A stretch of 64,000 nucleotides of DNA from Rhizophagus irregularis (lineage: Eukaryota > Glomeromycota > Glomeromycetes > Glomerales > Glomeraceae), in contig NC_089435.1 of NCBI RefSeq assembly GCF_026210795.1, forward strand, positions 2,046,001 through 2,110,000, in the 5' to 3' direction. This document shows positions 2,549 to 62,371 of the stretch, piece after piece. Numbering within the stretch: position 1 is the stretch's first letter; every line of letters starts with the position of its first letter. Both the position numbers and the translations under genes were made by a program. The notes beneath the pieces are model-generated. The model did no database searches. It worked only from the letters and a program-made list of their open reading frames with translations, and had not been told where the DNA came from.

Positions 2549-4028
2549 TTAATTTAGAATTTGAAATACTTCATATTCTTCACCAGAAAAAAATTCAGTA
2601 GATTCTCTGATTTGCTTTTCGTAATACATATAATCACAAATACCAACGTCACTAATTAAAATAAGGTCATCACCAAAAGCTGGACCAACTTCACGATAGT
2701 TGTGTATAGCAAAATTTTCATTTTCCACGCGCCTTAAAATATAACTTTCAATATCATCACTATTCTTAAAAGAAAATATAAAACTATCGTTAGTAGTGCC
2801 ATAATTACCAGCATCATTAGACTCCCATTTAATTGGATTATATCCCCCAAGAATTTCATTACTATCTTTCACTTTAATAATTGTTATAGTACGAAATTGA
2901 TTATCACAGATTTCATGAAATTTTTCAGGTGTAAATCCATCACGAGATCCACGCAGTAACAAATTGAATTTGTACGCAGTTTTTATCTCATCCGTAATTT
3001 TTAATCTATCGATCCATTTCGAGATTAATTCAGCATGTTGAGATGTAATGATTTTGGAATCAATATTAATTTCTTTAGTAGACATACGAGGTTTTGATTT
3101 TTTATTAGGATTCATAAAATATTTTAATAAGTCTTCATATAATAAATCCTTAGGTAAAATCTTCCTGTAAGGTAATACTTTATCAGAAAATTCTTCAGAA
3201 GATAGATTATGAAATCTGATAAATGGAATACATTGACGCACATTATTCTTTAAAGTTTTGAAATCTTCTTTTGAAAAATTTGCAGGATCCGAAGAAATTT
3301 CTGGGTTTTGAGCAAGTCCCCATTTAAGCACATGATTCCATACTTGAATTTCTTCCATTTGAAGATTATCACTTTGAATAATTGTGATCAAAAGCTTTTC
3401 TGGAATTGAAGCAAAATTTAGAGATTTGAATATCTTATCTGGTTCTTCGGAGGTTAAATTAGTACAAAAATTTTGAAGTTCCAAGAAAGAATCGTTCTCG
3501 AAGCATGTTTGATATATCAAATTAAAATTTTGTTCCATCCAATTTGCCTTAGTTTTAATCAAGAAGGATTGTATATAAGTGATTAGTTCTTGAAGACCAA
3601 GTTCACTTCCGGCAATCAAGATTTTAATTATATCCGAAGTATCATATTCCTCCAAGGAAATTCTTCCACTATAAATATATCTAAAAAAATAAAAGCGTAA
3701 ATTTAAATATGTTGTTATACAGTATATTCATTTTGTAATTTCAATAATTTTAATTTAATTTTAATTATTACCTTAAGATTATTTGAAAAATTTCAGGTAA
3801 AATATTTGGTAATTTTATATGAACCAAAGCCCCATCATTATTCTTTTTATTTGTTGATAACATTCTTCGTAGATACGTGGAACGATAATGTAAGATAACC
3901 ATATGAGCACGAAATATCTTTATATAAGGATCATTACCAACTTCAATAGTAACATCATAATATTCTTCATCATTTAAAATTTCAAGTAAATTCTGAAATA
4001 ATTTTGGTAAAAGATTATTATCATCCAT
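2549..4028 (-). CDS. BTB-BACK-TLDc domain protein (462 aa)
   Basis: The coding sequence is complement(2549..3680, 3772..4028), with a 91-nt intron 3771-3681 (GTAATA...TTTTTAG). 257 + 1132 nt give 463 codons with stop. The BTB/POZ domain covers roughly residues 15-110 (YYDVTIEVGNDPYIKIFRAH; HYRSTYLRRML). A BACK-like helical region follows (ANWMEQNFNLIYQ, FIRFHNLSSEEFSDKVLPYR, about 125-265). The C-terminal TLDc domain covers about 290-462 (LLLRGSRDGFTPEKFHEICD, EILGGYNPIKWES, DSFIFSF, GPAFGDDLIL). BTB usually gives dimerisation or a CUL3 link; TLDc is a fold shared with oxidation-resistance and TBC/LysM proteins. The substrate is unknown. It is a close paralogue of 8497-9976, with similar flanks, so the pair is a duplicated segment. 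All domains look intact. Confidence 0.9.
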
Positions 4029-8496: not shown

Positions 8497-9976
8497 TTAT
8501 CTTATAACTTGAAACACTTCATATTCTTCCACAAAAAAATCATTAGTCGTTTCTCTGATTTGATTTTCATAATGATTATTTTCACAAAAACCATAGTTAC
8601 TAATTAAAGCAAGGTCATCACCAAATCTTGGACCATTAGTTCGATAGTTGTGTATAGCAAATTCTTCATTTTCCACGCGACTTAAAATATAACTTTCAAT
8701 ATCACCACTGTTCTTAAAAGAAAATATAAAACTATCCTTAGTAGTGCCAAAATTACCATAGTAATTAGATTCCCATTCAATTGGATTATATCCCCCAAGA
8801 ATTTCATTACTATTTTTCACCTTAATAATTGTTATTGTATGAGATTTGTTATCACAGATTTCATGAAATTTTTCAACTGTAAATCCATCACGAGACCCAC
8901 GCAGTAACAAATTGAATTTGTATGCAGTTTTTATCTCATCCGTAATTTTTAATCTATCAATCCATTTCGAGATTAATTCAGCGTGTTGAGTTGTAATGAT
9001 TTTGGAATCAATATTATTTTTCCTAGTAGTCATACGAGATTTTGATTGCTTAATTGATTGGTTGTTAGAATCCAAAAAATATTTTAATAAATCTTTATAT
9101 AATTCTTTTGGTAAAACTTTTTTATAAGGTAATATTTCTTTTGAAAATTCATCAGAAGTTAAATTATAGAATCTAATAAATGGAATACAATTATGTAAAC
9201 TATTTTTCAAAGTATCAAAATCTTCTTTTGAAAAATTTGCAGGATCCGAAGAAAGTTCTGGATTTTGAGCAAGTCCCCATTTAAGCACATGATTCCATAC
9301 TTGAATTTCTTCCATTTGAAGATTATCACTTTGAATAATTGTGATCAAAAGTTTTTCTGGAATTGAAGCAAAATTTAGAGATTTGAATATTTTATCTGGC
9401 TCTTTAGAGGTTAAATTAGTACAAAAATTTTGAAGTTCCATAAAAGAATCATTCTCAAAGCATGTTTGATATATCAAATTAAAATTTTGTTCCATCCAAT
9501 TTGCCTTAGTTTTAATCAAGAAGGATTGTATATAGGTGATTAGTTCTTGAAGACCAAGTTCACTCCCAGCAATTAAGATTTTAATTATGTCCGAAGTATC
9601 ATATTCCTCCAAGGAAATTCTTCCACTATAAATATATCTAAAAAAATAGAAAAACGTAAATTTAAATGTTGTTATACAGTATATTCATTTTGTAATTTTA
9701 ATTTAATTTTAATTATTACCTTAAAATTATTTGAAAAATCTCAGGTAAAATATTTGGTAATTTTATATGAACCAAAGTCCCATCATTATTCTTTTTATTT
9801 GTTGACAAAATTCTTCGTAGATACGTGGAACGATAATGTAAGATAACCATATGAGCACGAAATATTTTTATATAAGGATCATTACCAACTTCAATAGTAA
9901 CATCATAATATTCATTATCATTTAAAATTTCAAGTAAATTTTGAAATAATTTTGGTAAAAGATTATTATCATCCAT
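8497..9976 (-). CDS. BTB-BACK-TLDc domain protein (465 aa)
   Basis: The coding sequence is complement(8497..9637, 9720..9976); intron 9719-9638 is 82 nt. 257 + 1141 nt give 466 codons. BTB at about 15-110, BACK-like about 125-265, TLDc about 295-465 (RGSRDGFTVEKFHEICDN, NEILGGYNPIEWES, GPRFGDDLALIS). It is the closest paralogue of 2549-4028: exon 1 differs at only two residues (E21N, and A67T near NNDGALVH/NNDGTLVH) plus M56I. The linker before TLDc has a short SNNQSIKQS insertion, and the TLDc end is the most divergent part. Adaptor function is inferred from the family. It has the same promoter block and the same upstream relic as its twin. Confidence 0.9.
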
Positions 9977-10989: not shown

Positions 10990-12301
10990 CAGTGCCTGGA
11001 AATAAGTCAGTAAGCACGTGACTGTAGATCATTTATTTGTTTAACTTTAAAACCAGTTTTGTCGATCATTTTATTATAAATTTGTCTCCAATTTTTTCCC
11101 ATGCGTTGTTTAGAACCTTCTTTAACTACTATGTCTTGCAAACGAAGAGAACTTACAATTTTTGAACGTGGAGAAGTCATTGGAGCTTGGAAATGTGGAG
11201 TAAGTGAACGAAAGATAGCTGAAGCATTAAATTGTCCCAGTTGTACCATTCATAAGGTTATTTCTACTTACAAGATACGTGGTGATGAAACACTCCCTCC
11301 TAGGACTGGAAGACCGCCTAAAATGACAGAAAGGGATGGCCGACATTTAATAAGAATTCTTAAAAAAGATAGGAAAATGACCCTTCAGGAGTTACATGAG
11401 AATTTCGTTGATTCTACTTCCACACATGTATGCAAAAAAACTTTACTTAATTATCTTCATGAACAAGGTTTTTATAGTCGAGTAGGAGTAAGAAAACCTC
11501 TTGTTACTGAAACAAATAGAATTAAAAGACTCAACTGGGCCAAAGAACGAAAATTATGGATAAATGAGTGGGACAGTGTTATTTGGAGCGACGAATCCAA
11601 ATTTGAATTATTCAGAGGAAATGGTAGGAGATTGGTTTGGAGAAGGCCACATGAAAAATATGATATTGAGTGTTTAATACCTACAGTAAAGTCAGGTCAA
11701 CAAGGAGTGATGGTTTGGGGATGTTTTTCAAAAAACAATCTTGGTCCATTAGTTAAATTAGAAGGTAAAATAACAGCCACAGTATATATGAATGTACTGG
11801 AAAATTATTTATTACCATTTATTAATAATCTAGACGATCAGGAAAATTTTATTTTTCAGGATGATAATGCCCCTATACATACTGCAAGGGTGGTTAAGAG
11901 TTGGGAAGAAGAAAATGAAGTAAACAGCCTTCCTTGGCCCGCACAGAGCCCAGATTTGAATCCTATAGAGCATTTATGGGATGAATTGGAAAGGCAGGTG
12001 CGGGCACATAAGCCATTACCAAAAAACAGGGAGAATTTATGGGAAATACTTCAAGAGGAATGGTCAAATATTGAAGCTGATAAATATCAAAATCTTATTA
12101 GTAGCATGCCTCGTCGTATCTCTGCTGTTATAAATAGTAAAGGTTACCCAACAAAGTATTAATAAAAAGTTGAAGGCTTTGTCTTTCAAATAAAAAAAAA
12201 AATATTAAATTTGGCGTAGTAATTTATGAATTATTTAATTTTAAAAATTCGCATTAAAATTGATCGACATCACGTGCTTACTGACTTTTTTCCAGGCACT
12301 G
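10990..12301 (+). mobile_element. Complete Tc1-family DNA transposon (1312 bp)
   Basis: The left end CAGTGCCTGGAAATAAGTCA (10990 on) is matched by the right end, reverse complement CAGTGCCTGGAAAAAAGTCA (12301 backwards); about 32 bp match with one change, running through GTAAGCACGTGA. TA lies on each side (10988-10989, 12302-12303), the Tc1/mariner target duplication. It holds one intact transposase gene. Near-identical ends and an open frame suggest a young, possibly active copy. It lies 39 bp upstream of the start of the kinase pseudogene. Confidence 0.93.
11101..12162 (+). CDS. Tc1-like DD34E transposase (353 aa)
   Basis: It cuts and pastes the surrounding element in the nucleus by binding its inverted repeats. 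The N-terminal paired-like helix-turn-helix half (about 10-75: FERGEVIGAWKCGVSERKIA) is followed by the linker GRPPKMTERDGRHL (about 70) and a second HTH half (MTLQELHENF...TLLNYLHEQGF). The DDE domain has WSDESKFEL (first Asp), FQDDNAPIHTA (second Asp, followed by Asn) and SPDLNPIEHLWDELE (Glu), with exactly 34 residues between the second Asp and the Glu. The length is normal for Tc1. ATG 11101 is the first; ATG 11131 (MSCKRRELTIFERGE) fits the family start better and may be the true one. No stop or frameshift is present. Confidence 0.93.
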   Translation: MRCLEPSLTTMSCKRRELTIFERGEVIGAWKCGVSERKIAEALNCPSCTIHKVISTYKIRGDETLPPRTGRPPKMTERDGRHLIRILKKDRKMTLQELHENFVDSTSTHVCKKTLLNYLHEQGFYSRVGVRKPLVTETNRIKRLNWAKERKLWINEWDSVIWSDESKFELFRGNGRRLVWRRPHEKYDIECLIPTVKSGQQGVMVWGCFSKNNLGPLVKLEGKITATVYMNVLENYLLPFINNLDDQENFIFQDDNAPIHTARVVKSWEEENEVNSLPWPAQSPDLNPIEHLWDELERQVRAHKPLPKNRENLWEILQEEWSNIEADKYQNLISSMPRRISAVINSKGYPTKY

Positions 12302-31205: not shown

Positions 31206-32665
31206 TTAATTTAGAATTTGAAATACTTCATAATCTTCCACATAAAATTTATCAGCAGCTTTTCTGCTGATTTGTTTTTCGTAACGATCATTCTCACAAT
31301 ATACAGTCTTCCCAATTAAACAAAGGTCAAATTTACCAAATGCTGAACAAGCATGATTATAGTTTAATATAGCAAATTCTTCATCTTTCACACGACTAAA
31401 TATATAATTTTCAATATCATCACTATTCTCAAAAGAAAATATAAAATTATCCTCAGTAGTGCCATAATTACCAGCATCATTAGACTCCCATTTAATTGGA
31501 TTATATCCCCCAAGAATTTCATCACTATTATCTAATTTAATAATTGTTATAGTACGAAATTGATTATCATATATATCATGAAATTTTTCACGTGTAAACC
31601 CATCACGAGATTCACGAAGTAACAATTTAAATTTGTACACATTTTCTATCTCATCCGTAATTTCTAATCTATCAATCAATTTCGAGATTAATTCAGCATG
31701 TTGAATTGTAATGATTTTGGAATCTATATTATTTTTTTCTTAGTAGCTTTTGATTGTTTAATTGATTGGTTGTTAGAATCCAACTTTTGGTAAAACTTTT
31801 TTATAAGGTAATATTTCGTTTGAAAATTCTTCTGAAGTCAAATTATAAAATTTAATAAATGGAATATAATGCTGAACTTTTTTTCAAAGTATTAAAATCT
31901 TCTTTTGAAAAATTTGCAGTATCAGAAGGAAGTTCTGGATTTTGAGCAAGTCCCCATTTAAGCACATTTTTTCATACTTGAATTTCGTCCATTTGAAGAT
32001 TATCATTTTGAATAATTGTGATCAAAAGTTTTTCTGGAATTGAGGAAAAATTTAAAGATTTGATTATCTTATCTGGTCCTTTGGAGGTTAAATTAGTACA
32101 AAAATTTTGAAGTTCCAAGAAAGAATCGTTCTCAAAGCTTATTGATATATCAAATTAAAATTTTGTTCCATCCAATTTGCCTTAGTTTTAATCAAGAAGG
32201 ATTGTATATAACTAAAATAAGTGATTAATTCTTGGAGACCAAGTTCACTCCCTGCAACCAAAACTTTAATAATATCCGAAGTATCATATTCCTCTAAAGT
32301 AATTCTTCCACTATAAATATATCTAAAATAGTTAAGAACGTAAATTTAAATAATAAATTATACAAATATTTTTTTGTATTTAAATTTTAATTCTTTCCTT
32401 TTTCTTACCTTAAGATTATTTGAAAAATTTCAGATAAAATATTTTGTAATTTTATATGAAACAACGTTCCTTCATTTTTCCTTTTATTAGTTGATAAAAT
32501 TCTTCGTAGATACGTGGAACGATAATGTAAGATAACCATATGAGCACGAAATATCTTTATATAAGAGTCATTTCCAACTTCAATAGTAACATCATAGTAT
32601 TCATCGTCATTTAAAATTTCAAGTAAACTTTGAGACAATTTCAGTAAAAGTTCTTTATCATCCAT
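31206..32665 (-). pseudogene. BTB-BACK-TLDc pseudogene (several frameshifts)
   Basis: Exon 1 (32665-32409, 257 nt) is open and normal (MDDKELLLKLSQSLLEILND). Exon 2 should start at 32322, but has a base lost in AAAGCTTATTGATATATC (near 32140; siblings AAGCWTGTTTGATATATC), changes near 31980 and 31880, a ~35-nt loss near 31785, and an extra A near 31733 that brings a stop. The TLDc part (31679-31206) is open again: LLLRESRDGFTREKFHDIYD, EILGGYNPIKWES. So it is recently inactivated, or a damaged gene with two intact end domains. Its promoter block is also decayed. Confidence 0.85.
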
Positions 32666-37083: not shown

Positions 37084-37249
37084 CATAGTTGGAATTTCTC
37101 AATGCAGATCAGTGCATACTCATTTAAATATTCCTTTTTGGTAGCTCATTCATGGATATATTGAATAAGAAAAAAAAATTTTTTTTATCTAAAAAAAGCT
37201 TGTCAAAAAAAATTATTATTTCCCATAAAACAAATTTCTAAAATAACAA

Positions 37250-40200
37250 ATGGAAACTGAATTTAATGAATCAAATATCTTAGATAAAAATACTGATACA
37301 ATAAATACCAAAAATTGCTTGTATTGCAATACAATTTTTACTGAAAAATTATGGTGTAAAGAATGCATTAATTCTTTAGAAAAATTGGCAGAAAATGGTG
37401 ACAAAGAAGCAATGTATAGTTTAGCCATATTTTATAACAATGGAGAAGAGATAGAAAGGAATTTAGAAAAAGCCTTTTATTGGTATCAAAAAGCAGTAGA
37501 AAATGGTAATGAAAAGGCATTGTTTAATTTAGCTAATAGTTACTATAATGGAGAAGGAACAGAAAAGAATTTAGAAAAAGCCTTTCATTGGTATCAAAAA
37601 GCAGTAGAAAATGGGGTTAAAGAAGCAATGCTTAATTTGGCCATATGTTATGAAAATGGAAAAGGGACAGAAAAGAATTTAGAGAAAGCCTTTTATTGGT
37701 ATCAAAAAGCAGTAGAGAATAGTGGAGAAGAAGCAATGTTTAATTTAGCCATATGTTATGAAAATGGAGAAGGAACAGAAAAGAATTTAGATAAAGCTTT
37801 TTATTGGTATCAAAAGGCAGCAGAAAATGGTAATAAATATGCAATGTTTAATTTAGCTAATAGTTATTATAATGGAGAAGGAGCAGAAAAGAATTTAGAA
37901 AAAGCCTTTCATTGGTATCAAAAAGCAGCAGAAAAAGGTGATAAAGTAGTAATGTTTAATTTAGACAGTAGCTATCATAGTGGAGAAGGAATGGGAAAGA
38001 ATTTAGAAAAAGCTTTTTATTGGTATCAAAAAGCAGCAGAAAAAAATTATATTAAAGCAATGCTTTATTTATCTATATGTTATGAAAATGGAAAAGGAAC
38101 AGAAAAGGATTTAGAAAAAGCTTTTTATTGGTATCAAAAAGCAGCAGAAAATGGTGAAGAACAAGCAATGTTTAATTTAGCCAATAGCTATTATAATGGA
38201 AAAGGAGCAGAAAAGAATTTAGAAAAAGCCTTTTATTGGTATCAAAAAGCAGTAGAAAATGGGGTTAAAGAAGCAATGTTTAATTTAGCCATATGTTATA
38301 AAAATGGAAAAGGAACAGAAAAGAATTTAGAAAAAGCCTTTCATTGGTATCAAAAAGCAGCAAGAAAAGGTGATAAAGCAGCAATGTTTAATTTAGCCAA
38401 TAGCTATTATAAAGGAGAAGGAATAGGAACAAATTCAGAAAAAGCCTTTTATTGGTATCAAAAATCAGCAGAAAAAAATTATATTAAAGCAATGCTTTAT
38501 TTAGCCATATGTTATAAAAATGGAAAAAAAACAGAAGAGAATTTAGAAAAAGCCTTTTATTGGTATCAAAAATTGGCAGAAAATGGTAATAAAAATGCAA
38601 TGAATAATTTAGCCATATGCTATGAAGATGGAGAAGGAACAGAAAAGAATTTAGAAAAAGCTTTTTATTGGTATCAAAAGGCAGCAGAAAATTATGATAA
38701 AGATTCATTGCTTATTAATTTAGCCAATAGCTATTATAATGGAGAAGGAACAGAAAAGAATTTAGATAAAGCTTTTTATTGGTATCAAAAAGCAGCAGAA
38801 AATGGCAATGAAGGTGCAATGAATAATTTAGCCATATGTTATGAAAATGGAGTAGGAACAGAAAAGAATTTAGAAAAAGCCTTTTATTGGTATCAAAAAG
38901 CAGCAGAAAATGGCAATGAAGATGCAATAAATAATTTAGGTGTATGTTATTATAATGGAGAAGGAGCAGAAAAGAATTTAGAAAAAGCCTTTCATTGGTA
39001 TCAAAAAGCAGCAGAAAATGGCAATGAAGATGCAATGAATAATTTAGGTGTATGTTATGAAAATGGAGAAGGAACAGAAAAGAATTTAGAAAAAGCCTTT
39101 TGTTGGTATCAAAAAGCAGCAGAACATGGTAATAAATATGCTATGAATAATTTAGCCATATGTTATGAAAATGGAGTAGGGACAGAAAAGAATTTAGAAA
39201 AAGCCTTTGCTTGGGATCAAAAATTGGCAGAAAATGGTGATAAAGATGCAATGAATAATTTAGGTGTATGTTATGAAAATGGAGTAGGAACAGAAAAGAA
39301 TTTAGAAAAAGCCTTTTATTGGTATCAAAAATCAGCAGAAAATGGTGATAAAGATGCAACAAATAATCTAGGTGTATGTTATGAAAATGGAAAAAGAACA
39401 GTAAAGAATTTAGAAAAAGTCTTTTATTGGTGTCAAAAATTGGCAGAAAATGGTAATAAAGATGCAATGAATAATTTAGCCATATGTTATGAAGATGGAG
39501 AAGGAACAGAAAAGAATTTAGAAAAAGCTTTTTATTGGTATCAAAAAGCAGCAGAAAATGGCAATGAAGGTGCAATGTTTAATTCAGCCATATGCTATGA
39601 AAATGGAGAAGGAACGGAAAAGAATTTAGAAAAAGCCTTTTATTGGTATCAAAAAGCAGTAGAAAATGGTAATAAAGATGCAATGAATAATTTAGCCATA
39701 TGTTATGAAAATGGAGTAGGAACAGAAAAGAATTTAGAAAAAGCCTTTATTGGTATCAAAAAGCAGCAGAAAATGGTGATAAAGATGCAATGAATAATTT
39801 AGGTGTATGTTATGAAAATGGAAAAAGAACAGTAAAGAATTTGTATAAAGCTTTTTATTGGTATCAAAAAGCAGCAGAAAAAAATTACAGTAAAGCAATG
39901 CTTTATTTAGCTATATGTTATGAAAATGGAGAAGGAACAGAAAAAAGTTTAGAAAAAGCCTTTTATTGGTATCAAAAAGCAGCAGAAAATGGCGAAAAAG
40001 AAGCAATGTTTAATTTAGCCAGTAGCTATTATAATAATTATGATGTAGAAAAAATGGAACAGAATACAGAAAAAGCCTTTTATTGGTATCAAAAAGCAGC
40101 AGAAAATGGTTATGAAAGAGCAATGTTTAATTTAGCCAATATCTATTATTGGAAATGGAATAGAAAAGAATTTAGAACAAGCCTTTTATTGGTACCAACA

Positions 40201-41697
40201 AGCAGCAGAAAATGGTTATACTGAAGCAATGATTAATTTAGCTATATGTTATGAAAATGGAAAAGGTACAGAAAAGAATTTAGAAAAGGCTTTTTATTGG
40301 TACCAAAAAGTAGCAGAAAATAATAATGTAAATACTAAAAATGAAGCCGAATGTGTAATGAATGCAATCAACCATATACTGATTACCAGTGGTGGTGCCA
40401 GCAATGCAATACTAAACGATTTCAACAAGATTTTTCAAATTGGACTAGTAAAAATGAATTTATTGATAAATTTATTCAAGAAGCACAACTAAATGCTAAA
40501 AATAGTTACGAAATTTTAGAGTGGATACCTTATAATAAATTGTCAAATATTAATTATTATGATAAAGGAGGATTTAGTGAAATTCATAAAGCTACCTGGT
40601 CAAATGGACCTATTTATAGTTGGAATTTTGATAAACAACAATGGAATAGACAATTAGATTATGAGGTCATTCTTAAAACACTTAATAATTCATCAAGTTT
40701 AGATAGCAAATTTCTTGATGAGGTATAGTACTTATATTTAATAGTATATTTTATTTTCTTTTGCAAAAATTTAATAATTTTTTTATCATTTATATAGTGG
40801 AAATATCATTATAATTGTCAGAAAAAATCATTTTCAAAATTTATTCAATTCTTTGGATTTACCCAAGATCCAAAGAATTTAAATTATATAATAATAATGA
40901 GTTATGCAAAAAAAGGAAGTTTGAGAAAATGTTTACCTGATATAATTAAATTTAAATGGAAAGAAAGGTTACAATTATTGAAAAAAATTATATTAGGACT
41001 TAAAGTAATTCATGAATCAAATTTAACTCATGGTGATTTTCATGATGGTAATATTCTATTATCAGATAATTACAATGAATTATTTATTATTGATTTAGGA
41101 TTGTGCAAACCTATAAGTGATTTACAAGATTCTAATAATAAAGTTAATGAAATTTACGGAGTTTTACCTTATATGGCGCCTGAAATATTGAGAAAAAAGT
41201 CTTATACTCCAGCAAGTGATATTTATAGTTTTTCAATGATAATGTGGGAGTTTACATCAGGTATTCCTCCATTTAGTCATAAAGCACATGATCATCACCT
41301 TATCTTAAGTATTTGTAAAGAAGGAAGACGCCCTGAAATTATAAAAAATACTCCAAAATGCTATATAGATTTAATGAAAAAATGTTGGGATTTAGATCCT
41401 TCCAATAGACCAACCATAATAATGCTTGAATATACAATATCTGAATGGATTAGATGTATTAATGAATATTATGAAATAAACAGGGATGGAAAATATAAAT
41501 TTGAAGCACCTAATATTGAGAATCAATTAAAAAATGATATGTTGGAATTTGTAGCAGCAAACAAAGCTATATTAGAAGGACAAGCAAGTACTTCTACTAT
41601 ACAATATCATTCACAAGCATATTATACAAGTCGCAGATTTACTGAAATTTCAGTTCAAGAAGAGTCTCAGGGCTTTGATTGTATGATTGAAGATTAA
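37250..41697 (+). pseudogene. Sel1-repeat / TKL-like kinase chimera with three frameshifts
   Basis: The ATG at 37250 opens a ribbon CLYCNTIFTEKLWCKEC, then about 27 Sel1 repeats of 36 aa (NLEKAFYWYQKAAENGN...AMNNLAICYENGEGTEK). A second ribbon follows (CNECNQPYTDYQWWCQQC, from 40354), then a kinase: GGFSEIHKATW, VILKTL, THGDFHDGNILL (HGD for HRD), IDLGLCKP (DLG for DFG), YMAPEIL, and CWDLDPSNRPT. One intron, 40723-40797 (GTATAG...TATATAG, phase 0), splits the kinase as in its relatives. Frames change near 39748 (TTTT to TTT), 40150 (two bases lost) and 40345. Sel1 repeats are scaffolds; TKL kinases of this type are signalling enzymes. The order Sel1 before kinase, with a full kinase-type ribbon in the middle, suggests two genes joined. 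The frameshifts may be real or homopolymer errors. Confidence 0.8.
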
Positions 41698-43951: not shown

Positions 43952-45475
43952 TTAAAGGGTAAACCAATCCGCCGGTATGATTTGAAATATTTCATATTCT
44001 TCCACAAAAAATATATCAGTAGTTTCTCTGATTTGTTTTTCGTAATTATTATTATAACAATTACCAAAGTCTCCAAATAAAGCAAGGTCACCAATACCAA
44101 ATACTGGACCACTATTATAATGGTTAAGTATAGCAAATTTTTCATATTTTACACGACTCAAAGTATAAATTTCAATATTATCATTGTTGTTAAACGAGAA
44201 TATAAAACTATCTTTAGTAGATTTATAATCCTTTTCACAAATTGCATCATATCCACCAGATTCCCATGCAATTGGATTATATCCTCCAAGAATTTCATTA
44301 CTATCTTTCACTTTAATTATCGTTATAGTATGAAATTTATTATCACAGATTTCATGAAATTTTTCACGTGTAAATCCATCACGAGATCCACGAAATAACA
44401 ATTTAAATTTGTACGCATTTTTTATCTCATCTATAATGTTTAATCTATCAATCCATTTTATAATTATTTTAGCGTGTTGAATTGTAATGATTTTGGAATC
44501 AATATTAATTTCCTTAATAGTCGTACAAGGAGGTTTTGAATCTTTAATTGGTTGACTGTCAAGATTCATAAAATATTTTAATAAATCATCATATAATAAT
44601 TCCTTTGGCAAAACCTTTCTGTAAGGTAATACTTTGTCCGAAAATTCTCGAGAAGTTAAATTATGAAATTTTATAAATGGAATACACTGGCGGATATTAT
44701 TTTTTAAAGTTTTGAAATCTTCTTTTGAAAAATTTGTAAGGTCAGAAGGAAATTCTGGATTTTGAGCATATCCCCATTTAAGAACATATTCCCATACTTG
44801 AATTTCGCTCATTTGAAGATTTTCACTTTGAATAATTAAGACCAAAAGTTTTTCCGGAATTGATGAGAAATTTGGTGATTTAAATATCTTGTTTGGATTT
44901 TTGGTTATTAAATTAGTACAAAAATTTTGAAGCTCCAAGAAAGAATCGTTCCCAAAACTTATTTGATATATCAAATTAAAATTTTGTTCCATCCAATTTG
45001 TCTTAGTTTCAATCAAAAAGGATTGTATATAAGTGATTAATTCATGAAGACCAAATTCACTTCCAGTAAGCAAGATTCTAATTATATCCGAAGCATCATA
45101 TTCATTCAAAGAAATTTTTCCACTATAAATATATCTAAGATAATAAAAAAGCGTAAATTTAAATATTAATTAAACAATCATATTTTAAATTTAATCTTGT
45201 ATCATTCCTATTTCTTACCCTAAGATTATTTGAAAAGCTTCAGGCAAAACATTTGGTAATTTTATATGAACCAAAGTTCCATCACTTTTCTTTTTATTTG
45301 TTGACAACATTCTTCGTAGATACGTGGAACGATAATATAAGATTACCATATGAGCACGAAATATCTTTATATACGGGTCATTACCAACTTCAATAGTAAC
45401 ATCATAATATTCTTCATCATTTAAAATTTCAAGTAAATTTTGTGATAATTTTGGTAAAAGTTTATTATCGTCCAT
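43952..45475 (-). CDS. BTB-BACK-TLDc domain protein (479 aa)
   Basis: The coding sequence is complement(43952..45134, 45219..45475); intron 45218-45135 is 84 nt (GTAAGA...TATCTTAG). 257 + 1183 nt give 480 codons. BTB about 15-110 (YYDVTIEVGNDPYIKIFRAH), BACK-like about 125-265, TLDc about 300-472 (FRGSRDGFTREKFHEICDNK, EILGGYNPIAWESGGYD). Two oddities: the codon at the junction gives Gly (ILG|YIY) where siblings have Arg, and the usual end FQII(R) runs on for PADWFTL because the normal stop is lost. Adaptor function is inferred. It is closest to 60875-62371, with which it shares the longer SGxYxxICExxYxSTKDS loop in TLDc. Confidence 0.88.
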
Positions 45476-47600: not shown

Positions 47601-48366
47601 GGTAAGTTTGGACAAAGATCGATTCGTGAGACTAGTACGTACATCCAAATAATTTTAATTTATTTAAATGATCGTTAATTTCAATTATGTTTAAGTTTTT
47701 TAACAAGTATCCACAAAATTTTGTTGAATGAAAATAAATCGGTTTTGTAAAAAAAAATTGGATTACTACTTCTTTTTCTCATTCTTCTGAAGTTCTCGAA
47801 ATGGGAGATTTACAAATTTACTCAAATTAAAGAATCTAATGGGGAGTTGAGAATAATAGGGGTTTTTCCCCCAGAAAAGTGTAATTACTACTCCAATAAG
47901 TAACCTACCCTGAAAACGATTTGGGAATAAATTTTATTAATAATACTTTTTAAAAGATATCATCTCAAAACTTGGCAATTTGCTTGGGATCGATCGACCA
48001 CAGGTAGTACAAGAAAATATGTCGTTGAACGATACATTTGCTACTGTGTCAATGTTTGACATTGTTTTGATGTATTTTATGGGTTCCTAATTGGAGCACC
48101 GGATATATTACAAATTTCGTTCATTGTACAACATTATGTGATGGTCATGTGATTTTAAAGCTGTAGGTCGGAATTATGGTGTCAAATAACCGGCGACAAG
48201 TAGGGCCGATAATAATTCTTCACATGGTCACACGATAGAGAAATTTTTATGGTGGTACTAGGGAAAATGTGTTAATTTGGCTAACTTGCAGCCTGGGTCT
48301 GTGAAATCCTATATTGTCTTTGCCAGTTCTGCGCAACCTTCATGCCTTCTTCTTCAACGTTCTGTA
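47601..48366. other. Spacer up to the Ginger-like element
   Basis: Mixed AT-rich sequence; GGGGTTTTTCCCCC near 47859 is a small palindrome. No gene is seen. It ends with the TCAG target copy 48367-48370. Confidence 0.5.
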
Positions 48367-48763
48367 TCAGTGTTGTAACTGAAATTGAAATCTAGCTGAT
48401 CTTTAAATTCAGATATATGAAATTAAAATTTGACGATCAATTAAATGAAATTGAAATGTCGATTTTATTTTAATTTCAGTTAACGTATAAAATTCGATTA
48501 ACAGATCATGTGATCCTAGGCCTCCTAATATGATTGGCCCAAAATTATCAGCCACATTTATTTATTTGTTTATTGTTTATCGTCACCACTATACATCTCT
48601 CTTTCTTGCATCTTTTCCCATATTTTTTCCATATTTTTTATGGTTTAAAAATTTATTTTTAATTAATAAAAACAGTATTTTCTTTAATAATTAATTTAGA
48701 AAAAGAAAAGTTGTTAATACTTTTCATAATAATTTTATAACAATCGCGTTTTTTCATGTAGAC

Positions 48764-49420
48764 TTCATAACGTAATCTCAGCTTTTTGGTTAAACTAAAC
48801 TAGCTTTGGAAGACTAAGTAAGGTTGTTTAACAGGTATGAAAGTAATTAGTTATAAATTTTATTAAAATAGTTTGAATATTTGTAGTACTATGTGTATTT
48901 TTGTAACTTTATAGCATAATTTTTAGTACTTTGGTTAATTAAAACAGCTAAGTAAGTTATTTATTTAGAAGGTATAGAACTACTCAAATATTAATTTTCG
49001 TCAAGGTAGTTCATTTTCAGAATTTATATGAGTATTTTTTTTGTAATAAAATTACTGTGCCGCATATAATTTTTTTATTTTATAGCGTAATTTCATCACT
49101 TTTATCGAATAAAACAGGTCTTGAGGACTAAGTAAAGTTTTCAGTAGGCAAGGATCTATTCATATATTAATTTTCAATAAAATAGCTTGCATATTTGTAA
49201 AGTTATAGGCATTTTTGTAATGTGGTTCATTTTTATTTTTTTTTTATTTTACAATGTAATTTTAGCATTTTAATTAAATAATATGTCATTAAAGACTAAA
49301 TAAATTATTCAACAAATACAATATCAATTTTCATTGAAATAACAAATTTTTGCAAAATTTATTGCTATTTTTTTTGTAATATTAAGACGCGTTTTTATAT
49401 GTAGTTTATTAAAAAATTAA
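48764..49420 (+). repeat. Left subterminal repeats of the Ginger-like element (4 units)
   Basis: Four degenerate units of about 145-175 bp start near 48764, 48908, 49081 and 49250, each with a (T)ATAGC/ACGTAATTT opening, a GACTAAGTAA phrase and an ATATTAATTTTCRTYRAAATAG phrase, ending TTTTTGTAAT. There is no coding content. They may be binding sites for the element's integrase. Confidence 0.6.
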
Positions 49421-49593
49421 ATATAAAAGTACAATAAATATGCATTTTTATTAAAATACAAAATTTTTTCTAAGGTAAATCGTATGCGTGACTGATTTTA
49501 AACCAATTATATTTGAGAGAAGTGGGTCTGTGCTTCGTATGAAATTCTGCGGTGTTGATTGTGATCACGTGATCTGTGATTATTGTACTTTTG

Positions 49594-49885
49594 CAAAATT
49601 ACAAATAAAGAAAATGAATACCATTGTAATTAATTAATTCAATAAAACTCAATGAAATGTTAATAGAAACATACGATATTATAAAAATTACAGTTAAAGA
49701 ATATTAATACACTTTACAAATAAAAAACAATTTATAAAACATTTATAAGCCATTTCGCAAAATTACAAATAAAGAAAATTGAATACTATTGTAATTAATT
49801 AACTCAATAAAACTCAATGAAATGTTAACAATATCATAAAAATTACAGATAAAGAATATTAATATATAATACAATAGATAATAAT
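49594..49885 (+). repeat. Pair of ~130-bp direct repeats
   Basis: 49594-49725 and 49756-49885 share GCAAAATTACAAATAAAGAA, TTGTAATTAATTAA, CAATAAAACTCAATGAAATG and AAAGAATATTAATA. They lie inside the Ginger-like element, left of its gene. Confidence 0.75.
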
Positions 49886-49899
49886 TTATAAATTATGAC

Positions 49900-50254
49900 A
49901 AATAAAAATTCGGTCTTAATGAAAATCTTTCTATCGCATTGATACACCAATCTTAGATAAACAAGCAGTATACATGTTAGATTGATTAGATTTTGCTCTA
50001 AAAAAGAGATGAAATTTTCTATATATTGGTAAAATAATAACGAGAGAGTAGGAAGGAAATTGTATAATCGTAAAAACTAAAATTCTTAATTTGCTTCTGT
50101 ACAATTCATATAATTTTATGCAATTTTGTGCAATTCCACTATTTCTTTTTGCTAACCTTTCAACAAACAATATCAAGGCGTATTAAGTAAAAATTTTGTT
50201 GGTTTTTGTTGGATTTTTACATAAATTTTTGAAGCCCTATATAAACACTATTTC
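49900..50254. other. Upstream region of the integrase gene
   Basis: A minus-strand open frame (50176-49931, 81 codons) is unrecognised. A likely 5' leader intron follows: GTGAGTAAAC at about 50319 to TTTATAATAG at about 50393, spliced just before AAATCAAC-ATG. Confidence 0.4.
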
Positions 50255-50401
50255 TTGTTATCAATCGTCCTTTCCAAATTATTTGATACTGTATGCAATT
50301 TTAAGCACTGTATTTGTAAAGTGAGTAAACATATTAGTACTAGTATATATTTTATTTTTTTCATGGTTATACTTATCTGTTTATTTATAATAGAAATCAA
50401 C

Positions 50402-53190
50402 ATGTCACAAGAATATACTTTACAAACTTCTGCAATTATTAGTAACCAAGAGAGTATCTGGGAGCAAAAAATCATTTCTAAGTCTGACTTTAAGGTAATG
50501 GTTCAAGAATATACTGAATCACTTAATGAAAAATTTAGAGATAAGGCATTTATCGATGAGGAAACTTACAAGGATATTGTCAAGTTGTTATCAGAAAATA
50601 ATAAAACATTACATGATCCAAATTGGCGTAATTGGGCAAGAAATAATTTTGTTCTAGAAATTGTTGGAACTAATAATATTGTGCACAAAATTCCAAGCAA
50701 GCGAGCTAAAGAAGCTATAGAAAAAAAGCAAGCTGGAACTATTACATTACCAGTATTAATTAAGGAAAGAATGTGGAATGAATTCTGTAATGCACATGTT
50801 CAGCTTGGACATGGTGGTGTTAGCAATACATATGCAAAATTAAAAAGTAAATGGAGTAATGTAAAACAGGATCTTGTAGTTAAGTTTATATCTAAATGTA
50901 TAACTTGTTCATTACGCAAAAATTCCATGACATCTGAAATTGAGGGAAAACCTATTATTGCAAAAAGTTTTTTATCGAGAGTACAAGTAATTATAATTTA
51001 TTTTCATTCATTCAATTTGTTTTTATATTGTTATACTAGTATATATTTTAATATAAATTTACTTTTAATAGATTGATTTAATAGATTTTAAGACCCGAAA
51101 TGATAATGAGTTTAAATATATTCTACATATACGTGATCATTTCTCAAGATATTCCTGGGCAAAACCAATTACTTCAAAAAGTGCATCTGAGGTTGCTGGG
51201 TGTTTATTTGAAATCTTCACAGAAATAGGCCCACCTACAATATTGCAATCTGATAATGGTAAAGAATTTACCGCTGAAGTAATTTTAAATCTTATGTCAT
51301 TATGGCCAAGTGTTAAGATCATAAATGGACGTCCACGACACCCACAGTCACAAGGAAGTGTTGAAAGAGGAAATGGAATTTTGACAAGAAAATTAGGTGC
51401 ACTAATGGAACAAAATCAATCTATTGAATGGGTAATAGCATTAAAATTAACATTGTGGGGTATGAATAATTCGGTTTGTAGAGCTACTGGAAAAACTCCG
51501 TACGAATTAGTATATGGACAAAAACCAAAAAATAATTTGGTTTGGCTTGATACATTATTTGAACAAAATAATAATGTATTAGACGAAGATAATATTTTAA
51601 GTGATATTGAAATTGAACAAGAAATGAATAATTTGAATGATATTGATGATGATGTTCAGGTTTATCTATTTTTTAATTAAAAGTAAAGTTCATTTATCTA
51701 AATTTTTTATATATTAATATATAATATATATAAATAATTAATAGGCAGATGAAGAATTTGAAAATTTATCACTTACACCAATTACTAAGAATGTGGTAGC
51801 TTTTAACTCCAATGCTCCTAAAAAATCTAAATATAAAAATAATGTACTATAATATTCTTATTTATCATTTATATTATTTACTTTAATATATACTAATTAT
51901 ATTAATTTTTCAATAGCAAATTGATACCCCATTTAAATTAAAAACTAAAAATTACCCTGTAAGTATAAATATTTAAATTTATATATTGAATTACTATATG
52001 ATATATTTTTTATTTTATAACTTTTAAATATAGCAAACGCCTGTTAGAAAAAATAAAGGAAAAGTAAGAGAAATAAGCAGTGACTTAGATAATAATTGTG
52101 AAGAAGTTATAAATATTGAAGAAAATTTAGATGAAGTTTCGGATATCAATGAAGAAAAGAATGTAGATAATGAAAGTATGAGTGATAATGAAATTATTAC
52201 AATAGGAATTAACCGCGTAAGTAAAATAAATAAATCAGCAAACTGCAAACATTTAAAATAATTAAATTATTAATATTTTTATATTTATTATTTAGCCACA
52301 ACCAAAGCCAACCATTATTAAAAATCCTACTCCTATAAGTGATGACACATTTTATTATCGTGAAGGTCAAGTTAATGAAGTTTCATGGGAAGAAATAAAT
52401 GAAACATATTTGGGATTGTTTGGATACTCCGAACAACTAAATCCACTTACTACAAAAAAAGAAATACTTGCGGCTTTAAAGGATATTACTTTATTGAGAA
52501 AAAATCCAAATATGTATCCAACTGATGCTTTAAATGTTTGGGAATATAAGCTTTCCAATTGGCTGAAACTTTATGATGATGAACAGGTAATTATATAATA
52601 TTTTATAATGCATATAATAAAAACTTTTATTTTATAATATTAACTTATATGCATAATAGGCTGGACCTTCAAATACAGAATTAACTTCACATGATTATGT
52701 ACGTAAACATGCAGAAGAAAATCTTAAAACATATACCGCCAATATGAAAGAATTAATACTATCAACAGCTAAAATTGTTAAATATAAAATTGGAGATTTA
52801 GTAAAAGTAAAAATTCCTAAAGAAGACAAGCATAAAATTGATAGGACCCATTTGCCTTGTAAAATTCTTTCTTTAACTGGAAATGATAAATATAAGTTAG
52901 GATGTCAATTTGGTGTACTTGATGTTAGTTACTCTGTTAGAAATTTGGAACCTTTAAAAGCACATATTTCTGGATTAGAAGATATACCACGGAGAAAAAT
53001 TTCTCTTAGAGAAGCTGCAAGATTGCAGTCTGCTTTACATGAAGAGGTAACAACAACTATTACAGAAAATCTTGAAATAACTTGTAAATGCCCTAAAACA
53101 ACTTGCAGTACAATGCATTGTCCATGTAAAAAAGAAAAAAAGAAGTGTAATACAAGTTGTCATCCAGAAAAAGAATGTTCTAACTTGTAA
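50402..53190 (+). CDS. Ginger-like transposon integrase, 7 exons (772 aa)
   Basis: The coding sequence is join(50402..50986, 51072..51659, 51745..51843, 51917..51958, 52034..52216, 52296..52586, 52660..53190). All six introns are GT-AG, 73-85 nt and phase 0, and the sum is 773 codons with stop. The HHCC zinc domain has HVQLGH (His132, 137) and CITC (Cys166, 169). The rve integrase core has IDLID (Asp197 or 200), QSDNGKEF (Asp256), and RHPQSQGSVERGNG (Glu293), i.e. a D-36-E spacing. An acidic linker follows, then an SH3-like tail (KYKIGDLVKVKIPKED, about 640-695) and a cysteine cluster (CKCPKTTC, CPCKKEKKKCNTSC, about 737-770) resembling a CXC/tesmin motif. It should bind the 95-bp ends and integrate the element. 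The start ATG follows a probable leader intron. Relatives are often annotated as KRAB-A-domain-protein-2-like. Confidence 0.88.
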
Positions 53191-53634
53191 TTAATTTTAA
53201 CACTTTGACATTTTTTATTCTGATAATATTATTTTAAAATAGAATTTATGATTTAATAAGTGTATTTTTAAGTGTATTTTTAAACTGAAAAAATATTAAT
53301 AAATCATGCAATACAAAACTTTTTACTCTGATCAAACTTTTATTATATATATTAAATAAATTCTTCTTTTATATTTAGTTTTATTTATTTAAAATAAGAA
53401 TATCTGAATACCAAATGGCTTATATGACTGGTCATTTGAAATTCCAATGACAAATAATAAGCAACTTGTCATTTGAGTCATTTAGTATTATTTCAAGTCA
53501 TTTGCCAGACACTGAACATTCAAGATATTTGGCTAATAAAATACTACCAAAATAATTTTTATTTAGCTATGTAAAAAAGTACTTATAACTTACATTTTTA
53601 GAGTAGTCACTATTACCTAACATTATAATGAAAT

Positions 53635-54470
53635 TAAAATTTTAACTGAATTTGAAATTCAGTTACGCTAATTTCAGTCAGCACCGTAACTGAGATTAAA
53701 ATTTTAACTGAATTTGAAATTCAGTTACTATAATTTCAGTCAGCACCATAACTGAAATCAAAATTTTAACTGAATTTGAAATTCAGTTACGCTAATTTCA
53801 GTCAGCACCGTAACTGAGATTAAAATTTTAACTGAATTTGAAATTCAGTTACGCTAATTTCAGTCAGCACCGTAACTGAGATTAAAATTTTAACTGAATT
53901 TGAAATTCAGTTACTATAATTTCAGTCAGCACCATAACTGAAATCAAAATTTTAACTGAATTTGAAATTCAGTTACGCTAATTTCAGTCAGCACCGTAAC
54001 TGAGATTAAAATTTTAACTGAATTTGAAATTCAGTTACGCTAATTTCAGTCAGCACCGTAACTGAGATTAAAATTTTAACTGAATTTGAAATTCAGTTAC
54101 TATAATTTCAGTCAGCACCATAACTGAAATCAAAATTTTAACTGAATTTGAAATTCAGTTACGCTAATTTCAGTCAGCACCGTAACTGAGATTAAAATTT
54201 TAACTGAATTTGAAATTCAGTTACGCTAATTTCAGTCAGCACCGTAACTGAGATTAAAATTTTAACTGAATTTGAAATTCAGTTACGCTAATTTCAGTCA
54301 GCACCGTAACTGAGATTAAAATTTTAACTGAATTTGAAATTCAGTTACGCTAATTTCAGTCAGCACCGTAACTGAGATTAAAATTTTAACTGAATTTGAA
54401 ATTCAGTTACGCTAATTTCAGTCAGCACCGTAACTGAATTAAAATTAACTGAATTTGAAATTCAGTTAAA
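53635..54470 (+). repeat. Higher-order satellite, 62-bp unit, ~13 copies
   Basis: Each unit has TAACTGAATTTGAAATTCAG then TTA, a 23-bp perfect palindrome, followed by CGCTAATTTCAGTCAGCACC. Two versions alternate: A (ACGCTAATT...CACCGTAACTGAGATT) and B (ACTATAATT...CACCATAACTGAAATC). The order is A B, A A B, A A B, then five A, so a 186-bp trimer has been amplified. There are no spacers, so it is not CRISPR-like. The TAACTGAAATT/AATTCAGTTA phrases also occur in the element's terminal repeats. Confidence 0.92.
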
Positions 54471-54907
54471 TTTTAATTTCAATTACAATATTATCTGAAA
54501 CTAAAATTTTCTGAACTTCAAATTAAATGTTTGGATACACAACAGATAACCAATCAACTATGTCTATATTGATTTTAATTTCAGATAAATTTTAATTTCA
54601 GATACAAACCCTTTAATTGAAATTAAAATTCAGATATCTGAAATCGAAATTTCAATTTCATTTAATTGATCGTCAAATTTTAATTTCATATATCTGAATT
54701 TAAAGATCAGCTAGATTTCAATTTCAGTTACAACATCAGCATTATAGCGTAATATCAGCATGTGTGCATTCCTTCTATGCTCAGCTATTTGGTTCTGTTG
54801 GTTTGCTGATTTACCAGCTGCTAAATTTCGAAATAGGGAGTATTCGACTTATTATGTAATAAAAGGCTGTTCATTTCTGATCGTTCGGATTTTTTATTAG
54901 ATTTTGA

Positions 54908-55102
54908 GTTACAGCTGTTTTCATAAGACCTGGGACAAACTAAATTTTTGAACCCGACTGCCGATCCGGTATTTTTAGCTGGACACGTGATCCTGATTTG
55001 ATAGTTTGATTTGTAAAATAAATAACAACTGAACCGGATCGGTGGGTCGGCGGTCGGGTTCAAAATTTATTTTGTCCCAGGTCTTATGAAATCAGCTGTA
55101 AC
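54908..55102. mobile_element. Inverted-repeat MITE (~195 bp)
   Basis: GTTACAGCTGTTTTCATAAG, ACCTGGGACAAACTAAATTT and GAACCCGACTGCCGATCCGG (54908-54968) mirror the right arm 55038-55102, whose reverse complement reads GTTACAGCTGATTTCATAAG, ACCTGGGACAAAATAAATTT, GAACCCGACCGCCGACCCAC. The arms are ~60-65 bp with few changes, and the whole can fold into one hairpin. I could not fix a target duplication. There is no coding. Confidence 0.75.
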
Positions 55103-55742
55103 TTGTTCAGCAAATCCGATTCTTGCGAACTAGATTTTTTATTTTTGGACCGCAATTTAAAAATAAGAAAATCATTGATTATTATTAAATTTTGTGCGCT
55201 TGATTTCTTCACGTCTTCGATATTAACTGTAATATTTCATGAAATCTCAAAATCGTTTCGAACATTAAATTTTACTGTACGTCATATGTTAACTTTGTGC
55301 GCGTAATAAAATATTTAACTGTATATGAATTATGAAAAAAAAATAAATAAATCTTCATTTGTCTGCTGCGGTCGTTTTTTATAAATAGAGTAGGACAATT
55401 CTTGTCATATGATTTGATCGACAATAACACTACGAAAGCATTTTTTAAATAATATCTCTAAATTTGAAACGATTGATTATGCACATACACATAGAATTTC
55501 TAAAATTTTGAAACGATCTAACCTAAGATAGTAATTTTTTTCTTGTTTCACAAAAAATAAAATGATGTTTTTCGTCGTACAGTAATTTTTTGAACGTACT
55601 TTTTTTGATATAAATTTCTCATATTTTCCCTTTTTTTATCTACCATACTCCAAAAAATTCATCAAAAATAAAAAAAAAATAAAAATATCCACAAATTATT
55701 TTCACAAATATTTAATTATAATTTAAAAATTTATTTGGAAAA
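55103..55742. other. Spacer and likely promoter of the N/Q-rich gene
   Basis: No gene. A 67-codon frame (55103-55306) is compositional. TTTGATATAAATTTC near 55606 could be a TATA element for the gene at 55743. Confidence 0.4.
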
Positions 55743-60874: not shown

Positions 60875-62371
60875 TTATCTTATAATTTGGAACACCTCAT
60901 ATTCTTCCACAGTAAAATCATCAGTGGTTACTCTAATATGTTTTTCGTAATCACTATTAGTACAATTACCATAGTCTTCAAGTAAAATAAGGTCACCATC
61001 ACCAAATGATGGTCCAAAATTACGATGGTTAAGTGCGGCAAATTCTTTATTTTTTACACGACTTAAAATGTAACTTTCAATATTATCACTGTTCTTAAAA
61101 GAGAATAAAAGGCTATCCTTAGTAGATCTATAAGAATCTTCACAAATTTCATTATATTCACCAGATTCCCATGCAATTGGATTATATCCACCAAGAATTT
61201 CATTACTATCTTTCAATTTAATAATCGTTAAAGTATGAGGTTGATTGTCACAGATTTCATGAAATTTTTTAGCTGTAAATCCATCACGAGATCCACGAAG
61301 TAATAATTTGAATTTGTACGCATATTTTATCTCATCTGTAATTTCTAATCTATTGATCCATTTTAAGATTAACCCAGCGTGTTGAATTGTAATGATTTCG
61401 GAATCAATATTAATTTCCTTAGCAGCCGTACGAGGTTTTGACTTTTTGGTTAATTGATTATTAGAGCTCAAAAAATATTTTAGTAAATCTTTATATAATT
61501 CTTTTGGTAAAATTTTTTTATAAAGTAATACTTCATCTGAAAATTCATCAGAAGATAAATTATAGAATCTAATGAATGGAATACAATGTTGCAAACTATT
61601 TCTTAAAGTATCAAAATCATCTTTTGAAAAATTTGTAGGATCAGAAGAGAGTTCCGGATTTTGAGCATGTCCCCATTTAACCATATGTTTCCATACTTGA
61701 ACTTCGTCCATTTGAAGATTATCACTTTGAATAATTGTGATCAAAAGTTTTTCTGGAATTGAAGAAAAATTTAAAGATTTGAATATCTTATCCGGTTCTT
61801 TAGACGTTAAATCAGTACAAAATTTTTGTAATTCCAAGAAAGAATCGTTCTCAAAACTTGTTCGATATACCAAATTAAAATTTTGTTCCATCCAATTTGC
61901 CTTAGTTTCAACCAAATAAGATTGTAAATAATTGATTAAATCCTGAAGGCCAAGTTCATTTCCAGTAACCAAGATTTTAATTATATCCGAAGTATCATAT
62001 TCATTCAAAGAAATTTTTCCACTATAAATATATCTAAAAATAAAAAAAAAAAATTATAAATTTTAAATACTTTTATTTTTTATATTTTAAAATTTTAATT
62101 CTTATCTTACATACCTTAATATTACTTGAAAAATTTCTGGTAAAATATTTGGTAATTTTATATGAACCAAAGTTTCATCATTTTTCTTTCTATTTGTTGT
62201 CAAAATTCTTCGTAAATAAGTAGACCGATAATGTAAGATAACCATATGAGCACGGAATATCTTTATATAAGGGTCATTACCAACTTCAATGGTAACATCA
62301 TAATATTCTTCATCATTTAAACTTTCAAGTAAATTTTGTGATAATTTTGGTAAAAGTTTATTTTCATCCAT
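60875..62371 (-). CDS. BTB-BACK-TLDc domain protein (471 aa)
   Basis: The coding sequence is complement(60875..62033, 62115..62371); intron 62114-62034 is 81 nt (GTATGT...TTTTTAG). 257 + 1159 nt give 472 codons. BTB about 15-110 (YYDVTIEVGNDPYIKIFRAH), BACK-like about 125-265, TLDc about 290-471 (LLLRGSRDGFTAKKFHEICD, EILGGYNPIAWESGEYNEIC, GPSFGDGDLILLEDYGNC). It ends FQIIR like 8497-9976, unlike the read-through copy at 43952. No damage is seen. Adaptor function is inferred from the family; the partner is unknown. Confidence 0.9.

Follow-up and report, generated by a model that had tools for sequence, protein, structure and literature searches.

The closest described relatives of the element reported here are the Ginger2/Tdd DNA transposons. 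As set out in PMC2836005 (Bao, Kapitonov and Jurka, 2010), Ginger2 elements are defined by terminal inverted repeats (TIRs) of ~50-180 bp, TGTNR ends, a 4-bp target site duplication (TSD) and a preference for RTATAY, while their protein combines H2C2 and DDE domains and carries no GPY/F or YPYY motif. The TSD of the Ginger2/Tdd group is 4 bp long, or 5 bp in TDD-4/5. Ginger1 elements share the TGTNR ends, the 4-bp TSD and the rve core, and the same paper lists one Ginger1 without OTU/Ulp1 domains. With respect to fungi, the only Ginger2 reported there is a vestige in Malassezia. No intact fungal Ginger2 elements were found in the literature searched, and the paper on transposable elements of Rhizophagus irregularis names Ginger only as a profile used (PMC11075540). 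A Ginger2-type system has also been described in nimaviruses, with a TIR that begins GTTGTGCCT / GTTGTGCCTAATAAGG and (AT)n as target (PMC10871703).

In this study, we analyzed a stretch of 64,000 nucleotides of R. irregularis DNA (the window; NC_089435.1, positions 2,046,001 to 2,110,000), for which an earlier note had described a Ginger-like transposon. We conclude with high confidence that this element is an autonomous cut-and-paste DNA transposon of the Ginger2/Tdd type, an assignment made by the published criteria and accompanied by a tree whose sequences all come from this genome.

Boundaries and insertion of the element

The element spans positions 48371-54735 of the window (6,365 bp), as re-derived from the sequence; its features are collected in Table 1. 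The 95-bp TIRs with a single mismatch (at position 88), the TGTTG...CAACA termini (outer bases TGTTGTAACTGA...TCAGTTACAACA) and the TCAG duplication were all recovered as the earlier note had given them. With its TIRs, its TSD and an open gene encoding H2C2 and rve domains, the locus is confirmed as a whole Ginger-like DNA transposon.

Table 1. Coordinates of the transposon features in the window, with the evidence for each.
Feature	Position	Strand	Evidence or remark
Left TSD copy, TCAG	48367..48370	.	Single TCAG in eight paralogous empty sites
Left TIR, 95 bp, starts TGTTGTAACTGA	48371..48465	+	99% identity to right end and to short element C20:1698386
Transposase (integrase-like) gene, 7 exons, 772 aa	50402..53190	+	Pfam rve E 3.8e-10; PFV integrase E 2e-14, residues 131-357
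Exons 1-4 (predicted)	50402-50986, 51072-51659, 51745-51843, 51917-51958	+	Frame and splice sites
Exons 5-7 (predicted)	52034-52216, 52296-52586, 52660-53190	+	Frame and splice sites
H2C2 zinc-binding domain, residues 129-174	50786..50923	+	Pfam Integrase_H2C2 E 4.8e-5, under curated cut-off
Catalytic core	51075..51365	+	D197 (51075-51077), D256 (51252-51254), E293 (51363-51365)
SH3-like barrel, integrase C-terminal-domain-like (modelled)	52777..52965	+	AlphaFold2 model, mostly pLDDT 70-89
CXC-like tail, 8 Cys + 1 His	53083..53184	+	All nine invariant in four subfamilies
Tandem array, 13.6 copies of 62-bp unit	53629..54468	.	Between gene and right TIR; 95% matches, no indels
Right TIR, 95 bp	54641..54735	-	One mismatch to left TIR
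Right TSD copy, TCAG	54736..54739	.	Paralogous empty sites

Empty TCAG sites, a possibility raised in the earlier note, do exist, here as paralogous copies in the same genome. The query consisted of 300 bp from each flank, joined after removal of the element and one TCAG, and the genome searched (as for the relatives described below) comprises 146.75 Mb in 32 contigs. At 16 or more paralogous places, this query is matched across the junction at 84-88% (query ~222-368, with the junction at 300). All eight paralogous copies that were aligned carry a single TCAG at the junction and no element; the junction reads TATCAGCATTAT in each of them, with TATCAGCATTATGG further along in one, and the unoccupied form of the window target site is written CTGTATCAGCATTATAG. 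The element has thus inserted into one copy of a dispersed host repeat of which other copies keep the vacant site and, because flank-joined paralogs carry a single TCAG across the junction, its past mobility goes beyond inference. The head-to-head junction CAACA-TATATA-TGTTGT, sought as a trace of tandem insertion, gave no match.

The flanks at 48295-48370 and 54740-54807 belong to this dispersed repeat, similar copies of which occur at 16 or more other places. In the window, the repeat copy is ~12% diverged from the other copies, a divergence that gives no date for the insertion. Just right of the transposon lies a separate short inverted-repeat element (54907-55103) with 42-bp arms that are 95% complementary, and its sequence recurs at ~20 or more places in the genome at 87-98%.

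Elsewhere in the window, an open 360-aa frame at 11080-12162 has the look of a Tc1/mariner-type transposase, with DDNAPIHTA and SPDLNPIEHLWD motifs. Five related frames (2549-3727, 8497-9684, 31206-31739, 43952-45169 and 60875-62053) probably encode BTB/TLDc-type proteins and probably represent a local gene family expansion. A long Sel1-like repeat protein at 37247-40224 continues in a second open frame near 39709-39793, which may be due to a sequence error or else to an intron or frameshift.

Transposase gene and protein

The undamaged gene of the earlier note, with 772 codons in seven exons, could be re-derived as a prediction from frame and splice sites: the exons join into an open frame plus stop, with no internal stops, and the six introns (73-85 bp, GT...AG) all fall in phase 0. 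Intron 1 is supported because a relative in the same genome, L031, lacks an intron at exactly that residue, its frame running continuously over the site (LSRVQ/IDLIDL). In two further relatives, L033 and L037, the coding match is interrupted directly behind this residue (LSRVQ). The other introns are predicted from frame and splice sites only.

At the level of the protein, the His and Cys ligands of the H2C2 domain are invariant across four subfamilies, and the rve triad is of the DD36E type, 36 residues separating D256 and E293. An AlphaFold2 model of the C-terminal exon, built from four relatives, has two helices, one on either side of a five-stranded barrel, and ends in a tail that is poorly predicted. 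Compared with the C-terminal domain (CTD) of PFV integrase (4e7k_A), the modelled barrel reaches Z 6.0 over 59 residues with an rmsd of 2.6. Since Tudor and PWWP barrels score like the PFV CTD against the same model, we claim for this predicted barrel only an SH3-like fold. A PDB profile search with the C-terminal part returned no significant match.

The tail resembles a Tesmin/TSO1-like CXC domain. Searched alone, it reaches E 0.006 and 17.3 bits with Pfam TCR versus a curated cut-off of 23.5 bits, and we therefore describe it as CXC-like, below the threshold for a CXC domain. The earlier note had treated this tail as a peculiarity of the element. Its presence stands, but it is not particular to this copy and is common to four subfamilies; because it is invariant in their predicted proteins, we count it as a clade feature. 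Metazoan KRBA2/SCAND3-like proteins have a similar barrel and a cysteine-rich tail behind an rve core, a likeness that serves as a lead only. The literature searched yielded nothing useful on the cysteine tail in Ginger2, on KRBA2 or on fungal Ginger.

Relatives in the genome

Other copies with the same ends, whose absence the earlier note would have counted against its reading, are present in the same genome as short elements (MITEs). A search with the left TIR retrieved a 144-bp palindromic copy (C20:1698386-1698529) with a left end at 99%, together with further MITEs, the whole set measuring 109-463 bp. Perfect 4-bp TSDs flank five of the seven short two-ended elements (AAAT, TAAT, GTGA, TATT and TATA). 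A second full-length copy of the window subfamily was not found in the genome. The protein search of the genome revealed three sister sets of full-length relatives with 52-54% core identity: the C1/C20 subfamily (ends TGTTGTGCCCCA; 5.3 and 4.8 kb), the C3/C8/C12 subfamily (ends TGTTGTGCCTCA; 4.5-4.8 kb; TIR beginning TGTTGTGCCT; targets TATA or TAAA) and the C14/C16/C17 subfamily (ends TGTTGTGCGTCA; 2.7 kb). These sister elements have TGTTGTG ends, are flanked by the TSDs TATA, TAAA and GTAT, and share the layout of one gene between TIRs. Related pieces occur at C2, C13, C15, C21, C28 and C31. No relatives were found in viral contigs, whether the query was the full protein or an alignment of the core or of the tail, nor in prokaryotic genome contigs.

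Counting all elements with both ends, a perfect 4-bp TSD is present in 13 of the 16 related elements whose ends are fixed by the TIRs (P ~1e-24, with a chance of ~0.009 per element at this base composition). TATA accounts for 6 of these 13, and a purine stands before every one, a pattern that corresponds to a relaxed version of the RTATAY preference published for Ginger2; the window copy itself reads A-TCAG-C, not RTATAY.

The compact 2.7-kb elements L031, L032 and L039 (C14, C16, C17) have nearly identical coding sequences without intron 1 and occupy three TATA sites; this subfamily looks like one that recently multiplied. Two other loci, L040 and L046 (C13, C28), are decayed members of another subfamily in this clade; stops interrupt their core, and their tail is truncated.

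The window element is accordingly one of at least four subfamilies in one clade of this genome, and these four have the cysteine tail in common, so that the suggestion of a separate lineage defined by this element goes too far. Nor is the description of the element as young supported: a TIR mismatch cannot date a DNA transposon, which led us to reject this method of dating, and the element is the sole full-length copy found of its subfamily.

That same single full-length copy, with its undamaged frame set against mostly diverged MITE ends, could also speak for a host-retained transposase gene with a cellular role, its transposon ends being kept by chance. We consider this very unlikely, given that the intact TIRs and TSD and the 99% identical end of the 144-bp MITE point to fairly recent mobility, and that the sister subfamilies are multi-copy with near-identical copies.

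Classification of the integrase

A maximum-likelihood tree of the H2C2 and rve region, comprising five Ginger sequences and 13 Gypsy integrases from the same genome, separates a Ginger clade (99/99) from a Gypsy clade (99/98), placing the integrase outside Gypsy in line with the earlier Ginger-like label. The Gypsy integrases (L062 and L064-L075) resemble the element in their H2C2 and rve DDE core, with ~32% identity over residues 132-346, but differ in their core without introns, in their separate clade and, for L062, in a reverse transcriptase (RT) encoded upstream. They differ also in a GPY/F-type motif, which is visible in these controls, whereas the motif search found neither GPY/F nor YPYY in the integrase of the element. 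The 408-aa intronless relatives (32% identity) were also considered as Polinton integrases; this candidate was rejected, as L062 has an upstream RT and GPY/F, which assigns these relatives to Gypsy.

The homology of the core to retroviral and Gypsy integrases, the abundance of Gypsy in this genome and the rve integrases that Polintons also carry might suggest that the element derives from a Gypsy LTR retrotransposon or a Polinton, of which only the integrase has survived, between fortuitous inverted repeats. Such an origin is extremely improbable. The 6.4-kb element contains no RT-, RNase H- or protease-like reading frame and no second coding gene, it is bounded by TIRs instead of LTRs, its relatives likewise carry one gene between TIRs, and its position in the tree is apart from Gypsy. 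Its 4-bp TSD also contrasts with the 6 bp of Polintons (PMC10045372).

A Ginger1-type element would likewise have the TGTNR ends, 4-bp TSD and rve core seen here, these being common to Ginger1 according to PMC2836005. We exclude Ginger1, as a highly improbable alternative, on account of motifs, C-terminal domains and targets: neither GPY/F nor YPYY is present, the element protein has no Pfam match to OTU, Ulp1 or PHD domains, and the AT-rich TSDs include CCGG/CCGT in none of the 13 perfect cases. In its TIR, ends, TSD length, H2C2 and DDE domains and motif absence, the window element agrees with the published Ginger2 criteria, its own target TCAG being the one exception. A placement closer than Ginger-like thus fits, the criteria pointing to Ginger2/Tdd and away from Ginger1.

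A 62-bp tandem array built from end motifs

The tandem array between gene and right TIR was absent from the earlier account of the element. In each of its units, TIR positions 5-45 are repeated, and a second end motif is present in inverted orientation. In local alignment the unit scores 35 against its own TIR, while the best of 1000 dinucleotide-shuffled units reaches 30. No copy of GTAACTGA in the array is preceded by TGTT, CACC or AATT being found instead, and the array copies therefore lack the terminal bases at which cutting is expected.

At the equivalent place, the C1 and C20 elements carry 10.2 copies of a 62-bp unit without detectable similarity to the window unit. This unit matches its own TIR, again from position 5 (score 42; shuffles up to 36). 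Cross-matches are weak, both for the window unit with the C1 TIR (score 22, reached by 11 of 1000 shuffles) and for the C1 unit with the window TIR (score 21, reached by 29 of 1000), and may stem from AT-rich palindromes common to both. Further copies of the end hexamer of a subfamily lie within the end regions or array of that subfamily and are mostly missing from the corresponding regions of the other subfamilies, with the exception of the C14 ends, which also hold two window hexamers and one C8 hexamer; hexamer counts in a tandem array are not independent, so that the unit-level shuffles are the fair test. In the 4.8-kb sisters (L033, L034, L035, L037, L038 and L058-L061), both long inverted ends contain ~109-bp repeats (some four copies), of which the unit is unlike the end motif, in contrast to the 62-bp arrays.

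Judging from these matches, the array units may be internal transposase-binding sites. We tentatively propose, as a possibility that we rate clearly below even, that the array has a function within the transposon: its units would be end copies without a cleavable terminus, set at a fixed 62-bp pitch (about six DNA turns) and loading transposase near one end, and with each change of the recognition motif (GTAACTGA, GTGCCCCA) the array sequence would have changed in step with the ends while the pitch stayed constant. A functionless, ordinary satellite expansion seeded by an end fragment is a serious possibility too, only somewhat short of an even chance. Slippage readily expands short repeats, and the number of 62-bp units varies from 4-5 in three short elements (the longer MITEs) to 10-14 in full elements. 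Against a mere satellite stands the same indel-free 62-bp pitch in two subfamilies with dissimilar units, each of which matches its own TIR from position 5.

Discussion

Building on the observed ends, TSD, empty sites, open gene, domains and relatives, we propose a model for transposition of this element. The gene, once spliced as predicted, would yield a single transposase, of which the H2C2 zinc domain and the rve DDE core would cut DNA at the TGTT ends. The transposase would then join the element to a 4-bp staggered target, and repair would leave the TCAG duplication. Contacts with DNA are most likely made by the SH3-like barrel and by the cysteine tail. The most likely role of the TIRs and of the 62-bp array, with its copies of the outer 40 bp of the TIR without terminal TGTT, is to keep the transposase close to the right end. 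The MITEs retain the ends of the element and are probably mobilized by the same enzyme.

With its four or more subfamilies, its MITEs, its near-identical copies and its paralogous empty sites, the clade constitutes a natural series. Such a series allows one to ask how an integrase of the retroviral type finds its own ends, since the motif, the array and the C-terminal domains can be compared between its members. We regard the element, the insertion of which is documented, as a new Ginger2 member, and its fixed-pitch array of end copies as the part that merits follow-up.

Among the described systems, the nimaviruses offer a likeness from outside the fungi. The first nine bases of the nimavirus TIR (PMC10871703) equal the ends of the C3/C8/C12 subfamily, which provides an independent hint. 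The sesarmid nimavirus integrase is likewise encoded by an intron-containing Ginger2-type gene and associated with insertion in AT repeats, but it resides in an endogenous viral genome of 265-285 kb and not in a one-gene element (PMC10871703). The likeness to Ginger2/Tdd as described in PMC2836005 extends to TIR length, TGTNR ends, the 4-bp TSD, the AT-rich targets of the clade and the accompanying MITEs and, for the protein, to the H2C2 and DDE core and the absence of GPY/F and YPYY. Two differences set the window element apart from that description: this copy entered TCAG instead of RTATAY, and it combines the Ginger2 core with a CXC-like tail and a 62-bp array of end motifs, features that the available part of PMC2836005 does not mention.
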